In this document: positions 26,728 to 35,319 of the stretch, one piece after another
How positions within the stretch are numbered: position 1 is the first letter of the stretch
How the letters are laid out: each line of letters opens with the position of its first letter
DNA from: Prosthecobacter debontii
GTDB taxonomy: Bacteria; Verrucomicrobiota; Verrucomicrobiia; Verrucomicrobiales; Verrucomicrobiaceae
Assembly: GCA_945869695.1 (NCBI GenBank)
Contig: CAMBPV010000002.1
Span: 32,786 to 96,785 of the forward strand
Direction: 5' to 3'
Length of the DNA stretch: 64,000 bases
Translations under genes and position numbers: made by a program
The notes under the pieces: generated by a model
Told to the model about the DNA's origin: nothing
The model's input: the letters and a program-made list of their open reading frames with translations, nothing else
Databases searched by the model: none

Positions 26728-26989
26728 ACACCCCTTGATGCAAGGCCCTCCGATCTCATCCGATGCAGCGCCACCGGCTCATTCGAACGCCCAAAAAGGC
26801 CAGCCGAGGCAGCGGAGACCGACCAAGTGAGCGACCAAGTCAAAGCAGCGTTCAGGTAAGGTCGAGCCCCATTTCTGATCACGGGAATTCATTGCACCAT
26901 GAACCCACTTGAGGCCGGGCTGCTTCCGTGGCACTGCTCATCGATCGGAGGGCCAGCCCTTCACACACCCACCTGAATTCGAATCCATC

Positions 26990-28051
26990 GTGAAAGAAGA
27001 TCTTTCCAACCCCACTCCTCCACCGCCATCTCTCACCGGAGGGCGGGCTCGTTTTCTGGATTCGGTTTGGCTCAAGATGGCAGCCGGCATCGCGGCTTTG
27101 CTTTTTTTACTCTGGGCCTTCGGCGCGCTGTACTTTGATTTCCCTTTGGCGAAGAGTTTCGCTCCTTGGGTCTTTTTGATCGGTGTGGCGGCGATGCTAT
27201 TTGTGATCCGGGGTGCCTGGAAAAAAATCGCGAGCGTCTTCGTGGCTTGTGGGATCGTGCTGGCGTGGTGGCTGACGCTGGAGCCGCGCAAAGATCGCCC
27301 TTGGCAGCCCGATGTGGCGGAGCTCGCGTGGGCGGAAGTGAAGGGCGACGAGATCACGCTGCACAACATCCGCAACTGCGACTACCGCACAGCGACGGAT
27401 CTCACGCCCCGGTGGGAGAACCGGACGGTGCGGCTCTCGCAGATCACGGGCGTGGATTTGTTTGTCAACTACTGGGGCTCACCCTTGATGGCGCATCCGA
27501 TTGCGAGCTTCCAGTTCGCCGATGCACTGCCCATTTGTTTCTCCATCGAGACCCGAAAGGAGGTGGGCGAAAAGTACTCAGCCATCGGAGGCATCTATCG
27601 GCAATTCGAACTGACGTACATCGCCGCCGATGAGCGCGATGTGATCCGCCTGCGGACGAACTACCGAAAGGGCGAAGAATCCTACCTCTACCGCACGAAA
27701 GTCACACCCGAACGCGCTCGAGAGAGGTTCATGGAATACGTGAACACGCTCAATGATCTGCGCGGGCAGCCCCGCTGGTACAATGCGGTGACGACCAACT
27801 GCACCACCGCCATCCGCAGTCAGCACCCGCAGCACCAGCGCCTGCCGTGGGACTGGAGGATGCTCGTGAATGGCAAGGGAGATGAGATGCTCTTCGAGAG
27901 AAATGCTTTTTTCACCGACGGATTGTCCTTTGCGGAACTGCGACCCAAAGCCCTGATCAACTCGGCCGCACTCGCTGCCGATGCCTCACCTGATTTCTCC
28001 AGGCTGATTCGCGTGAATCGTCCCGGTTTCTCCAGTCCTCCCGCACCTTGA
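26990..28051 (+). CDS. DUF4105 domain membrane protein
   Basis: EITLHNIRNCDYRTATDLTPRWENRTVRLSQITGVDLFVNYWG, WYNAVTTNCTTAI. GTG start at 26990 proposed. Confidence 0.8.
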   Translation: MKEDLSNPTPPPPSLTGGRARFLDSVWLKMAAGIAALLFLLWAFGALYFDFPLAKSFAPWVFLIGVAAMLFVIRGAWKKIASVFVACGIVLAWWLTLEPRKDRPWQPDVAELAWAEVKGDEITLHNIRNCDYRTATDLTPRWENRTVRLSQITGVDLFVNYWGSPLMAHPIASFQFADALPICFSIETRKEVGEKYSAIGGIYRQFELTYIAADERDVIRLRTNYRKGEESYLYRTKVTPERARERFMEYVNTLNDLRGQPRWYNAVTTNCTTAIRSQHPQHQRLPWDWRMLVNGKGDEMLFERNAFFTDGLSFAELRPKALINSAALAADASPDFSRLIRVNRPGFSSPPAP

Positions 28052-28150: not shown

Positions 28151-28179
28151 ATGACAAATTCAACGGGACCCATTATAAA
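28151..28179 (+). promoter_or_regulatory. Candidate sigma70-type promoter for the RiPP operon
   Basis: ATGACA, 17-nt spacer, TATAAA; lies 72 bp upstream of the SnoaL-like ORF. Confidence 0.45.
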
Positions 28180-28250
28180 AACAGCGTGAAGAGGATGGGT
28201 GCACAACACCGTTCCTCATTATCTCAGCCAAACTCACCTCCCCCCATACC

Positions 28251-28739
28251 ATGAACCGTCGAAATTCAATCATCACCGGGCTCACAGCGGTCACTGCCAT
28301 TGCCGGCCTCACTTCCACGGCCAAGGCCGAGGATGCAGAATCCAAAAATCCTGAACTGGAGAAAATCCGGGCTTTGCTCAAGGCGCACGACGATGCCATG
28401 ACCAGCCACAATATGGAGGGCGTTCTCGCCACGCTGGCTCCCAAGGCCGTCATTATCGGGTCGGGTCCAGGAGAAGTCTGGTCTGGGACGGAGGAGATTA
28501 AAGATGCTTATGAGCATTTTTTCCAAGGTTTCGACAAGGGTCAACAAGACTTCACGTATCAATTTAAATTCGGGGAGCTCGCCACTGGGATGGGCTGGCT
28601 GATGGCGTCGGGCGAGGTCAAAGGTAAAAAAGACAACAAGGACTTCGCGTTCCCGATGAACATTTCCCTCACAGCCTCGAAGGCCAGCGGTGATTGGAAG
28701 ATCGCGGCGATGCATTTCTCGACCCTGACAGGAAAGTAA
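28251..28739 (+). CDS. Exported SnoaL/NTF2-like (DUF4440-type) protein
   Basis: Signal MNRRNSIITGLTAVTAIAGLTSTAKA; LLKAHDDAMTSHNMEGVLATLAPKAVIIGSGPGEVWSGTEEIKDAYEHFF. Confidence 0.75.
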   Translation: MNRRNSIITGLTAVTAIAGLTSTAKAEDAESKNPELEKIRALLKAHDDAMTSHNMEGVLATLAPKAVIIGSGPGEVWSGTEEIKDAYEHFFQGFDKGQQDFTYQFKFGELATGMGWLMASGEVKGKKDNKDFAFPMNISLTASKASGDWKIAAMHFSTLTGK

Positions 28740-28780
28740 GATCGCAATTTTTCGGACCAATCTCAAACCTCTTCGATGCT

Positions 28781-29050
28781 ATGAGCGATACACCATCCAA
28801 CGAAAACGTGGTTCCCCATGAGGAAGCAGAACTTCAAAACCGGAGACTCTTCCTCCAAGGCATGGGGAAGTGGTCCGGGGCGGCGATTGCCGCCGTGGTC
28901 GGAACCGTGATCGGCACTGGGACGGAGGCGCAAGCCGGATCTTGGATCAATCGGCGAGGTGGCGGTGGTGGCTGGATCAATAGGCGGGGTGGTGGAGGTA
29001 GCTGGATCAATGGCCGGGGAATTGGCGGTTGGATCAATGGTCGTTATTAG
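28781..29050 (+). CDS. GrrA-like Gly-rich RiPP precursor with four WIN motifs
   Basis: 89 aa; leader ...NRRLFLQGMGKWSGAAIAAVVGTVIGTGTEAQA then GSWINRRGGGGGWINRRGGGGSWINGRGIGGWINGRY; next to a radical SAM/SPASM gene. Confidence 0.8.
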   Translation: MSDTPSNENVVPHEEAELQNRRLFLQGMGKWSGAAIAAVVGTVIGTGTEAQAGSWINRRGGGGGWINRRGGGGSWINGRGIGGWINGRY

Positions 29051-29073
29051 GAGCAGTATCCTGATTTCATCTC

Positions 29074-29874
29074 GTGCCTGAAAATCCTGCCGCGCCCATG
29101 GTGTTCCTTCCGGCGACACTCGCGGAGGACTCCAGCGGTGGCCCATTTACCGTCGTCGTGCAGACGCGTGAGGAGTTCACGCATTGGCTGCGCGCTCCGA
29201 ACCCAAACGCTGAAAGCATTCAAGTCGAGGGGCTGATCGGTGACCCAGAAGTCTGGGCACTTGCGGCCCAAGGGGGGATGCAAATCCCGCTGGATGTCAT
29301 CCTGAGCGATCCTGCGCTGGAGTTCTCTTCTCTCTACCGGCTTGTCGATGTCCGCTTGGTGCGTGAGGTCAGGGTCAGCATTCCGACCCGGCCAGGCTTC
29401 CTGAAAGCCCTGCGGCTCGCGGCGTCTCTGCAACTGCCTGTGCGGCTTCTCCCCGGTCAGCCGAGCCCTCAGTCTTTGGTTGAGTTGAACGAGGCGGCCC
29501 ATTTTTATCTTCGGGATCCCATGGTTGAAGTTCCTGTCGAGTTTTTCCATTCGGTGTTCTCAGCCTTCCGCGGTATGGAAGAAGGCACACTTTGGACTTT
29601 TCTTGAACAGGACCCTGCCTTTTTCTGCCACGTCGACCCTGCGGGCCAAGCGCTCCACGAACCCGATTTCGTTGAGGCCCATCTTTCGGACCTTCTCAAG
29701 ACGGGTGCCGAGTGTGCCACATGCCGATGGCAGCCAATCTGCGCTGGCTATTTCAAATGGCCCGATCCCGCTTATGATTGCGCGGGAGTAAAGGAACTCT
29801 TTGCCACGCTCGAATCTGCGGCCGTTGAAATCACTCGTGATCTGGCCACCCAAGAAATTGAATCCTCCTCATGA
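29074..29874 (+). CDS. SPASM-like cysteine-rich partner protein of the RiPP cluster (no CxxxCxxC)
   Basis: GTG start; C-terminal ECATCRWQPICAGYFKWPDPAYDC resembles an auxiliary-cluster motif; 4-nt overlap with the rSAM gene. Confidence 0.65.
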   Translation: MPENPAAPMVFLPATLAEDSSGGPFTVVVQTREEFTHWLRAPNPNAESIQVEGLIGDPEVWALAAQGGMQIPLDVILSDPALEFSSLYRLVDVRLVREVRVSIPTRPGFLKALRLAASLQLPVRLLPGQPSPQSLVELNEAAHFYLRDPMVEVPVEFFHSVFSAFRGMEEGTLWTFLEQDPAFFCHVDPAGQALHEPDFVEAHLSDLLKTGAECATCRWQPICAGYFKWPDPAYDCAGVKELFATLESAAVEITRDLATQEIESSS

Positions 29875-31073
29875 GCAACCGTGTTTTTAGCGTCATCCTC
29901 CTTCCCACTGCGGAGTGCAATGTGGCATGCACCTACTGCTTCGAGCACAAGGAGCCCCATCGTCTTTCGATGCTGCTAGTGCCGCTGCTCACTAAGCAAC
30001 TCCTCGATCACATCGAGCACGAAGGCATCGAGGAATGCGAGATCTATTGGCAGGGTGGCGAGGCAATGATCATGGGTCCTGCGTGGTTTGTGGAAGCCGG
30101 GAAGATCATGGACGATGCGGCCGCGGTGCGAGGTCGCCGCTTCACCCACTACCTCCAGACAAATCTCATCAGTTACTCGCCCGCCTGGAATGAAGTGCTA
30201 AAGGATATGTTTGGCGGATCGCTCGGCACCTCGATGGACTTTCCGAATCTCCACCGCAAGCTCTTCAGCGGAAGCGCGGAGGGTTACACTGCAATCTGGA
30301 CGCAGCGACTCCGCGAGGCGCAGGCCGCCGGCATCGACATCGGCGTCATCGCGGTGCTTCACCAAGGCAGTATCGACGCAGGTGCCGATGCCTTTTACCG
30401 CTACTACACCGAAGAACTTGGGCTCAAAAGTTTCCAAGTGAACACTCCGTTTCCTGGAGGACCGGCAAAAGCGGTGGAAGCGGAGTTTGACCTCGACAAA
30501 ACCGCGCTGGCGAGATTCCTCTCTGAACTTTTTGATATCTGGATGGAGCGCGGACACGCCGCAGGCATCTCGCTTGGTCCATTCGACTCACTCATCCATC
30601 ACTTCACGGGTGCGCCCGCGCGACTGCCTTGCATTTGGAAAGAGAACTGCTCGAATCAATTCATCAGCGTGGATTCCAAGGGCTCTGTGGCGCAGTGTGA
30701 CTGTTGGGTGACAAGCTACCCCGAGACGTTTTTTGGCAATGTCTTCCGCGATGCCGATCTCACGCAGATGCTGCGCACCAGCCCCGCAAGACGGGAGTTT
30801 ATTGAGCGCCCGAAACATCTCGTCGAGCATGAGGACTGCCTCGAGTGCCGCTTCCTTTCCATCTGCCACGGCGGATGTCCTGTGCGCACCTACAGTGCGC
30901 TGGGCACCATGCTGGCAAAGGATCCTTACTGCGAAGTTTACAAAGCCGTGTTCAGCCGCGCAGAAACCCACAGTCGTGCGCTGCTCCGCCGCCAGCCTCG
31001 GTTTACCGGTGCCACAAAGCCGACGATTCAAACCGGTCCGGCGAGCATGACAACGGTGGCGATCCCTCGATGA
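29871..31073 (+). CDS. Radical SAM/SPASM peptide maturase (GrrM-like, putative cyclophane-forming)
   Basis: LPTAECNVACTYCFEHKEPHR (CxxxCxxC); SPASM cysteines in CIWKENCSNQF...CDCW...CLECRFLSICHGGCPVR...YCEVY. Confidence 0.85.
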   Translation: MSNRVFSVILLPTAECNVACTYCFEHKEPHRLSMLLVPLLTKQLLDHIEHEGIEECEIYWQGGEAMIMGPAWFVEAGKIMDDAAAVRGRRFTHYLQTNLISYSPAWNEVLKDMFGGSLGTSMDFPNLHRKLFSGSAEGYTAIWTQRLREAQAAGIDIGVIAVLHQGSIDAGADAFYRYYTEELGLKSFQVNTPFPGGPAKAVEAEFDLDKTALARFLSELFDIWMERGHAAGISLGPFDSLIHHFTGAPARLPCIWKENCSNQFISVDSKGSVAQCDCWVTSYPETFFGNVFRDADLTQMLRTSPARREFIERPKHLVEHEDCLECRFLSICHGGCPVRTYSALGTMLAKDPYCEVYKAVFSRAETHSRALLRRQPRFTGATKPTIQTGPASMTTVAIPR

Positions 31074-31106: not shown

Positions 31107-32657
31107 ATGATGATGAGCCAAATTCAACGACGGAGTGCAATGGCAATCGCGCCGCTTCTCGTGATTCTTTGCGGCAACCTGATCAGTTGCGCCTCCAAAC
31201 CAAAGCCAGCGGTCACTCGAATCGTAGGCTCTACAAACGGCACTCCCTTCACTCCAATGAACTCAAAACACAGTGGAACCGCATCCGGCATTTTACCTCT
31301 GGCCTCTGGGCCGAAGGCTTTCGTGGCGCGGATGGCTCTCGCCGGAAACGCGCAGCACACCCTGGATCTCCAGTATTACATTTGGCACGGCGATCAGACG
31401 GGCAAACTGCTCGCCGGAGCCGTGATCCAAGCGGCGCAGCGCGGGGTGAAGGCGCGCCTCTTGCTGGATGACATGGGCACTGCGGCGAAGGATCGCAGCT
31501 TACTCATTCTCGACAGCCACCCAAACATTGAGGTGAAACTCTTCAATCCGATCAGCCTGCGCTCTCACCGGATGCTCGGCACGCTCTTGGACTTCAAGCG
31601 CGTGAACCGGCGCATGCATAACAAGTCATTCACAGCCGATGGGAAGGTGGCCATCGTGGGCGGACGCAACATCGGGGATGAATACTTTGGCGCGGCGGAT
31701 GGAATGAACTTTGCCGACTTTGACGTGGTGGCCAAAGGCCCGGTGGTGAGGGAAGTTACGCAGACCTTTGAGCGCTACTGGAACTGCGCGGCTGCGGTGC
31801 CGATCTCGGAGGTCAGTGGCGAGAAGGTCTCCGCCTCGGATCTGGAAAAAGGTCAGCACGAGCTTCTGGCTCATCGAGAAAAGATGGAGGGCACGCCGTA
31901 TGCAGCTGAGTTAAGATCGAGCCAGCTGGTGACCACTCCCTTGAGTGAAATCCGCTTCCTCGAGGGCAAGGCAGTGGTGGTCAGTGATCAACCCGAAAAG
32001 GTGACGACGCGCCCTGAGGATGCCTCCACGCACCTGGCACCGCAGATGCGGGACATCGTGCAGAACACGAAAAAGGAAATGATATTGGTGTCGCCCTATT
32101 TCATCCCTGGCCAGGAAGGTGTGGAATGGATGGCGGGGCTGGAACATCGCGGTGTGGCGGTGAAGGTGATCACGAACTCGCTTGCCTCCACGGATGTGGC
32201 CGCTGTCCATGCCGGCTATGCGCGGTATCGAGAGGGCTTGCTCAAGGCAGGCGTGGAGCTCCGTGAACTGAAAGCGCTGCCGATGACGAGCGACGCGGGC
32301 GGATCTGGCTTCAGCCTCACGGGCTCCTCCAAAGCGGGCCTTCATGCGAAGACGTTTGTGTTTGATCGACGCTGGGTTTTTGTGGGCTCGATGAATCTGG
32401 ATCCGCGCTCCTTGAAGCTGAACACGGAGATGGGCATGATCATCGACAGCCCCGAGCTCGCTGCGCAAATGCTCGCGCGCGTGGAGGAAAATCTGCCGCA
32501 ACGCACCTATCGGGTCGAACTCACGGATTCAGGCCTGCAATGGACGACTCAGGAGAAGGGTGAAAACGTGATCCTGAAGGCGGAGCCCAAAGCGGGTTTC
32601 AAGAAGCGACTCCTGTCGCGAGTCTGCTCGATGCTGCCCATCGAAGGCCAGTTGTGA
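31107..32657 (+). CDS. Phospholipase D/cardiolipin synthase-like lipoprotein
   Basis: Two HKD motifs: MHNKSFTADGKVAIVGGRNIGDEYF and LHAKTFVFDRRWVFVGSMNLDPRS; lipobox LISCAS. Confidence 0.85.
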   Translation: MMMSQIQRRSAMAIAPLLVILCGNLISCASKPKPAVTRIVGSTNGTPFTPMNSKHSGTASGILPLASGPKAFVARMALAGNAQHTLDLQYYIWHGDQTGKLLAGAVIQAAQRGVKARLLLDDMGTAAKDRSLLILDSHPNIEVKLFNPISLRSHRMLGTLLDFKRVNRRMHNKSFTADGKVAIVGGRNIGDEYFGAADGMNFADFDVVAKGPVVREVTQTFERYWNCAAAVPISEVSGEKVSASDLEKGQHELLAHREKMEGTPYAAELRSSQLVTTPLSEIRFLEGKAVVVSDQPEKVTTRPEDASTHLAPQMRDIVQNTKKEMILVSPYFIPGQEGVEWMAGLEHRGVAVKVITNSLASTDVAAVHAGYARYREGLLKAGVELRELKALPMTSDAGGSGFSLTGSSKAGLHAKTFVFDRRWVFVGSMNLDPRSLKLNTEMGMIIDSPELAAQMLARVEENLPQRTYRVELTDSGLQWTTQEKGENVILKAEPKAGFKKRLLSRVCSMLPIEGQL

Positions 32658-34767: not shown

Positions 34768-34986
34768 ATGATCGAGCGCATCACTTTCAATCCGAATCAA
34801 TGTGGAGGTCGCCCCTGCATCCGGGGGCTGCGAATCCGTGTGAAGGATGTGCTCGATCTGCTGGCAGCCAAAGTCCCTGAAGCGGAGATCCTGGAAGATT
34901 ATCCTTATCTGGAGCCCGAGGACATCGCCGCCTGCCTCGAATACGCTGCTGCCGAATTGGATCACCCCGTTCTCGTCTCCCGTTAG
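34768..34986 (+). CDS. DUF433 antitoxin
   Basis: ITFNPNQCGGRPCIRGLRIRVKDVLDLLAAKVPEAEILEDYPYLEPEDIAACLEYAA. Confidence 0.9.
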   Translation: MIERITFNPNQCGGRPCIRGLRIRVKDVLDLLAAKVPEAEILEDYPYLEPEDIAACLEYAAAELDHPVLVSR

Positions 34987-34989
34987 GCC

Positions 34990-35319
34990 ATGCGTTTCGT
35001 GGTGGATGCCCAGTTGCCGCCCGCCTTGGCACGGCTCCTGACCAGTCACGGTCACACCGCCGAGCACGTTTCGGACATTGGTCTCAGCGATGCCAATGAC
35101 TCGGCGATCTGGGCCTATGCCTTGCAGAATCAGGCCATCATCGTCACGAAGGATGAAGACTTCCACCATCGCTTCAGCCATACTTCAATCGCTCCCGTCA
35201 TTGTCTGGCTACGCATCGGCAACACCAGTCGCCGGGCGCTCCTTCATTGGGTCGAGCCGCTGATCCCCCAGATCGTCCAATTGATCGACCAAGGTGACCG
35301 CTTTGTCGAGGTGCGGTGA
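34990..35319 (+). CDS. DUF5615 PIN-like toxin
   Basis: MRFVVDAQLPPALARLLTSHGHTAEHVSDIGLSDANDSAIWAYA, IVTKDEDF; 3 bp after the DUF433 gene. Confidence 0.9.
   Translation: MRFVVDAQLPPALARLLTSHGHTAEHVSDIGLSDANDSAIWAYALQNQAIIVTKDEDFHHRFSHTSIAPVIVWLRIGNTSRRALLHWVEPLIPQIVQLIDQGDRFVEVR

Follow-up and report, generated by a model that had tools for sequence, protein, structure and literature searches.

The 64,000-nucleotide stretch of Prosthecobacter debontii DNA analyzed here (the window) contains four closely spaced forward-strand genes, in the order of a small SnoaL/NTF2-like protein with the look of an exported protein, a precursor peptide, a 266-residue partner protein, and a radical SAM (rSAM)/SPASM enzyme. 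The first gene (28251–28739) encodes a SnoaL/DUF4440 protein of the NTF2-like fold (Pfam SnoaL_3, E = 1.6e-12), and the second (28781–29050) a precursor of 89 residues, whose homologues at other loci have the same leader and W-x-N cores. The third (29074–29874) has a GTG start and a product predicted to be a degenerate rSAM/SPASM-like protein, and the fourth (29871–31073) encodes a putative peptide maturase of 400 residues with CxxxCxxC at residues 16–23. The SnoaL-like and precursor genes are separated by 41 bases and the precursor and partner genes by 23, and the partner and rSAM genes overlap by 4 bp (29871–29874); this spacing and the gene order indicate one transcription unit. Promoter and terminator consensus scans of the operon gave nothing convincing, but it should be recognized that such consensus sequences say little in Verrucomicrobiota. 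The order of precursor, 29074 gene, and rSAM/SPASM gene given in a preliminary description of this DNA is borne out by the ORF coordinates and a match of the enzyme to the SPASM model TIGR04085; the SnoaL-like gene, which lies within the region described but was not mentioned, is a fourth conserved member. The characterization of the 29074 product as cysteine-rich was not upheld, there being five Cys in 266 residues, of which a single invariant motif near the C terminus accounts for four. Two neighboring genes, encoding an Lnb_N-domain protein (26909–28051) and a PLD/cardiolipin-synthase-like protein (31107–32657), were rejected as cluster members because they are not conserved beside the homologues. 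Elsewhere in the window, the ORFs at 34768–34986 and 34990–35319 match DUF433 and DUF5615 (PIN-like) in Pfam, a gene pair in a typical toxin-antitoxin-like arrangement.

The core of the precursor, 37 residues rich in Gly and Arg (GSWINRRGGGGGWINRRGGGGSWINGRGIGGWINGRY), is encoded at 28937–29047 exactly as first described, and its four Trp-Ile-Asn units have the spacings of 10, 10, and 9 residues originally given, with Trp at residues 55, 65, 75, and 84 (codons at 28943, 28973, 29003, and 29030). No tandem repeat in the window is stronger than the one at 28943–29019, which overlaps the precursor ORF. That the precursor is not a product of chance follows from its presence with the same neighbors, in the same order, in about 20 other genomes. 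A pattern count in 20 precursors gives 112 W-x-N units, each peptide having 4 to 10 of them, and neighboring units lie 6 to 13 residues apart; the middle residue is Ile in 63, Val in 39, Leu in 7, Phe in 2, and Asn in 1, and the residue that follows is mostly Arg or Gly. Since the units were picked by the W-x-N pattern itself, the independent facts are the near-absence of Asn and Trp outside them: 112 of the 114 core Asn lie inside units, and most cores have no other Trp, the exceptions being mainly in a soil subfamily, where it occurs as NRW. Cys, Asp, Glu, and Lys are absent from all 20 cores, and a sactipeptide or ranthipeptide was rejected on the absence of Cys. The fixation of Trp and Asn at positions i and i+2, while their surroundings drift, is the pattern predicted by a bond between the Trp and Asn side chains, and three-residue Trp-Asn cyclophanes are the modification that this paired conservation would lead one to expect. 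The proposal in the preliminary description of such a ring at each W-I-N is thus retained as the most likely product, on the strength of the paired conservation and the precedents of OscB, XncB, and dynobactin synthase. Two characteristics of triceptide systems are present: conserved aromatic-x-x core units, here the W-x-N units of the 20 precursors, and an enzyme with a SPASM domain encoded beside the precursor, as found at all loci.

In the soil subfamily, comprising Verrucomicrobiota MAGs (L030, L031, L032, and L040), the units have the form W-I-N-R-W-G-P-R-R, with an extra Trp and a Pro, more Arg, and fewer Gly, and may yield differently linked rings. When 289 genomes of the order were scanned with the repeat pattern, every coding match was within this operon and no orphan precursors were found. 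One genome (G160) has a 22-nucleotide tandem repeat, TGGATCAACCGCTTCCTCCCAT, at the ends of two contigs (C14, 82–178, and C155, 53–105), that mimics the W-I-N pattern; because the unit length is not divisible by three, this is a DNA repeat and not a W-x-N peptide.

Residues 1–52 of the precursor (28781–28936), whose nature was not remarked on in the preliminary description, look like a Tat-type signal peptide that ends at the first ring. An n-region of about 20 residues is followed by NRRLFLQG, then by an Ala/Gly stretch of weak hydrophobicity, and finally by AQA immediately before the Gly that begins the core. Of the 20 precursors, 19 have the motif RRx[FC]L and the remaining one has KREFL; the peak hydropathy of the leaders, over 15 residues, has a mean of 1.62, some have Arg or Lys in the c-region, and Ala50 and Ala52 are invariant in a nine-row alignment. 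Among the 129 ORFs of the window, the precursor alone has such a motif near its start. The host genome also encodes TatC (156.8 bits against a cut-off of 132.7). At the level of motifs, therefore, the precursor has what is expected of a Tat substrate, namely a twin-Arg motif, a modest h-region, an AxA-like site, and a host tatC, but it should be noted that the assignment to Tat as opposed to Sec was made by motif and hydropathy only. The SnoaL-like protein also has an N-terminal export signal, MNRRNSIITGL...AKA; its homologues begin with MNRRN or MRRR, with Met1, Arg3, and Arg4 invariant, and are encoded directly 5′ of the precursor at every locus with enough flank.

The rSAM enzyme scores 52 bits on the NCBIfam SPASM model TIGR04085 (cut-off 27) and belongs to a family of 17 members, the others being 66–89% identical to it. 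Eight cysteines are invariant in this family (254, 260, 276, 323, 326, 332, 336, and 354) and align with the eight SPASM ligands of the anaerobic sulfatase maturase anSME, as assigned for anSMEcpe; Cys276-Asp277 aligns with the CD of anSMEcpe. A Foldseek search with the AF2 model, which is mediocre (pLDDT 71) and served for fold identity only, placed anSMEcpe first (E = 3e-15), with ChlB and 5why, a thioether maturase entry, next. The enzyme nevertheless falls far short of the cut-off of every maturase model, scoring 142 bits on anSME (TIGR03942, cut-off 349), 132 on DynA (NF041298, cut-off 450), 119 on DarW (NF041300, the cut-offs for DynA, DarW, and DarE being 450–650), 104 on DarE (NF038005, cut-off 650), 68.4 on GrrM (TIGR04261, cut-off 310), and 53–62 on the XyeB/XncB, YhhB, AmcB, and FxsB models (cut-offs 370–450), bit scores on different models being only a rough guide to kinship. 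It is accordingly regarded as representing a family of its own and not as a GrrM. No rSAM relatives at intermediate distance (E < 1e-35) were found outside this family in 388 genomes of the phylum. A second rSAM protein of the host genome (C160) was rejected as another copy of the operon enzyme, being anSME-like and only 28% identical to it.

The partner matched no family in Pfam or NCBIfam, and a search of PDB sequences with its profile was also without a match. Its AF2 model is of high confidence (pLDDT 92), but Foldseek detected no PDB structure below E = 0.001; the top probability (0.97) and the top query TM-score (0.49) were both for TigE (8vpo), an rSAM/SPASM protein of RiPP type, with E only 0.016. 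Profile comparison with hhalign aligned 109 C-terminal columns of the partner with the SPASM part of the rSAM enzyme encoded next to it (E = 2e-5, probability 77), placing Cys214-x2-Cys217-x5-Cys223 over Cys323-x2-Cys326-x5-Cys332 of the enzyme; partner Cys236 is then the likely counterpart of Cys354. These four cysteines, which form the C-terminal motif C-x2-C-x5-C-x12-C, are invariant in 21 homologues, and three members of the partner family match the SPASM model weakly, but the partner has no CxxxCxxC. It is likely to be a degenerate rSAM/SPASM protein that has lost the SAM cluster and probably one auxiliary cluster, a view in which we have moderate confidence. The rSAM enzyme starts directly at the barrel, leaving no space for an N-terminal recognition domain, and our guess is that the partner acts in leader recognition or in electron supply. 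A lone homologue in another genome of the order (G119; L021, 7320–8141) is 35–36% identical and keeps the four-Cys motif, with no recognizable precursor or rSAM gene nearby; it is either a remnant or a partner with a different role. At a further locus (L019, 9461–10350, in G056), the partner and rSAM genes, which nearly overlap elsewhere, have some 0.9 kb of repetitive DNA between them.

With the partner as query, nine homologues besides that of the window were found in 289 genomes of the order, eight of them in the same four-gene operon, and a scan with the rSAM alignment, using one genome per species, gave 19 loci, some being contigs already found through the partner. The order SnoaL-like gene, precursor, partner, and rSAM gene is kept at every locus where the contig is long enough. 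When the flanking ORFs were compared all against all, wide recurrence was confined to these four genes (and their shadow frames) and did not extend to the window neighbors. The operon is thus known from about 20 genomes of soil and water bacteria, in Verrucomicrobiota and two Eremiobacterota MAGs, including Chthoniobacter flavus Ellin428 (L028), Verrucomicrobium sp. BvORR034 (L024), Verrucomicrobia bacterium LW23 (L041), an Akkermansiaceae MAG (L035), and the Candidatus Eremiobacterota MAGs (L026 and L027). Its occurrence is sporadic: among the genomes sampled, about 3% of those from the order carry it, and 2 of 388 in the sample drawn across the phylum. The rSAM tree places the Eremiobacterota pair inside a clade of seven rows (support 99/97), the rest of which are from Verrucomicrobiota and one further MAG, and upstream of the operon the DNA of the two MAGs is syntenic over about 7 kb. 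This nesting and the shared flank have the appearance of horizontal transfer, and a cross-phylum transfer is the probable source of the operon in Eremiobacterota, although a binning error remains conceivable. Carriage on plasmids was rejected, as plasmid matches were only to generic SPASM proteins of 29% identity, and in a loose W-I-N scan of viral contigs none of the matches listed and inspected was an in-frame Gly-rich repeat.

Direct precedents exist for the bond proposed here. OscB joins Trp C7 to Asn Cβ, XncB joins Trp C6 to Asn Cβ between positions i and i+2, and dynobactin synthase joins Trp C6 to an Asn Cβ at i+3 (PMC11002830). The GrrM/OscB triceptides (TIGR04261/TIGR04260) resemble the present system in having a Gly-rich repeat precursor, an rSAM/SPASM enzyme, and aromatic-x-Asn units, and the preliminary description had called the operon GrrA/GrrM-like. 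That it is a divergent member of this group appears quite unlikely. OscB does join Trp to Asn and all 17 rSAM enzymes match TIGR04261 significantly (best E = 2.8e-25), but at 68 bits against the required 310 this score is below those for anSME, DynA, DarW, and DarE, and the precursor does not match TIGR04260. The operon has in addition a Tat-type leader, an extra SPASM-like partner, and a SnoaL-like companion in place of GrrP; the earlier remarks that no GrrP is present and that the accessory genes differ from the standard GRRM layout agree with this, no operon protein having such a match and only four genes being conserved. Among models of peptide maturases, the enzyme scores best on DynA, DarW, and DarE, and dynobactin also contains a Trp-Asn C–C bond, so that a relative of DarE or DynA might make the rings of an excised antibiotic directed at an outer-membrane target of competitors. 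This too is unlikely, given scores far under the family cut-offs, the many repeated units, a Tat-type leader where a dedicated exporter would be expected, and the lack of a conserved immunity or transporter gene. Known dynobactin and darobactin precursors carry one ring set, not 4 to 10 repeats.

The highest score of the enzyme is on the anaerobic sulfatase maturase model, which leaves room for another oxidation, and anSMEcpe shares with it the fold, the cluster cysteines, and the CD motif, but the substrate of the operon enzyme would be a repeat peptide. Some other modification of W-x-N than C–C cyclophane formation, such as an anSME-like oxidation of the Asn β-carbon, an ether, or a C–N link, is therefore to be considered, particularly as DarE and dynobactin synthase also form ether and C–N links (PMC11002830, PMC9055067). 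We regard it as rather unlikely, because oxidation of a single residue does not need a Trp two positions before the Asn, an arrangement that holds for 112 of 114 Asn, and because Trp-Asn C–C links from i to i+2 are precedented. Surface proteins can also combine Gly/Arg-rich repeats with an export signal, and the repeat protein might be an unmodified structural peptide, with the neighboring rSAM enzyme acting elsewhere; its strict association with the rSAM gene in a gene order that does not vary, the paired conservation of Trp and Asn, and the 4-bp overlap of the partner and rSAM genes make this very improbable. The enzymes of the XyeB/XncB, YhhB, AmcB, and FxsB groups are SPASM proteins that form cyclophanes, in XncB between Trp and Asn, but the operon differs in its precursor and in scores far under their cut-offs. 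The bufferins, which are MNIO RiPPs, likewise have a signal peptide as leader and a partner encoded with the modifying enzyme (PMC12452194), but use MNIO, Cys, and Sec where the operon has rSAM, W-x-N, and Tat. By its sequence features the operon appears to work like a triceptide system, yet by score it stands outside the GrrM, DynA/DarE, and anSME families.

We therefore favor, with considerable confidence, the interpretation that the operon makes a RiPP, namely an exported peptide with multiple cyclophanes and a Tat-type leader. The scheme starts from the computed features, namely the operon and its conservation, the paired Trp and Asn, the leader motif, the SPASM cysteines, and tatC, and proposes from them the rings and the atoms they join, the use of Tat, and the roles of partner and peptide. 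In the cytoplasm, the rSAM/SPASM enzyme, aided by the degenerate partner, would link the indole of Trp with the β-carbon of Asn in each W-x-N, giving four rings in the window precursor and 4–10 in its relatives. The crosslinked, compact precursor would then leave the reducing cytoplasm, the site of the oxygen-sensitive enzyme, through the Tat translocon, and signal peptidase would cut between AQA and Gly just ahead of the first ring. The ring peptide, basic through its Arg residues, would stay in the periplasm or envelope or be released, and the SnoaL-like protein, with its own twin-Arg N terminus, would meet and possibly bind it outside the inner membrane. It should be noted that the steps after ring closure are drawn from the leader motif and genome context. 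A more specific version has a Tat signal peptide as leader, the Trp-Asn rings as the "folded" state that licenses export, a SPASM-only pseudo-rSAM protein for recognition or electron transfer, and an exported SnoaL-like protein as receiver; it is put forward tentatively, as somewhat less likely than not. The product is perhaps a cationic peptide of the periplasm or cell surface; possible roles are those of a dynobactin-like antimicrobial, a cationic envelope-binding peptide, or a ligand carrier, and the variable number of repeats speaks for multivalent binding rather than for an antibiotic with a single target.

The operon was not found in NCBIfam 2026, Pfam 2025, or open-access papers, although subscription papers on triceptide or rSAM genome mining might list the rSAM cluster, and the combination of a Trp-Asn ring peptide with Tat-type export appears to be new to the family libraries and open papers searched. 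Its presence in named isolates (C. flavus Ellin428 and Verrucomicrobium sp. BvORR034) makes the scheme testable. Signal peptides as RiPP leaders have been described as original to the MNIO peptides, for which the question of how premature Sec export is avoided is open (PMC12452194). If the present interpretation is correct, the problem of premature export would have a simple solution in a Tat leader attached to an rSAM-crosslinked peptide, since the peptide would be exported only once folded. The operon would further provide multi-ring cyclophane repeats from a compact source, the triceptides would gain a cell-biological setting, and a pseudo-rSAM partner would enter triceptide chemistry.
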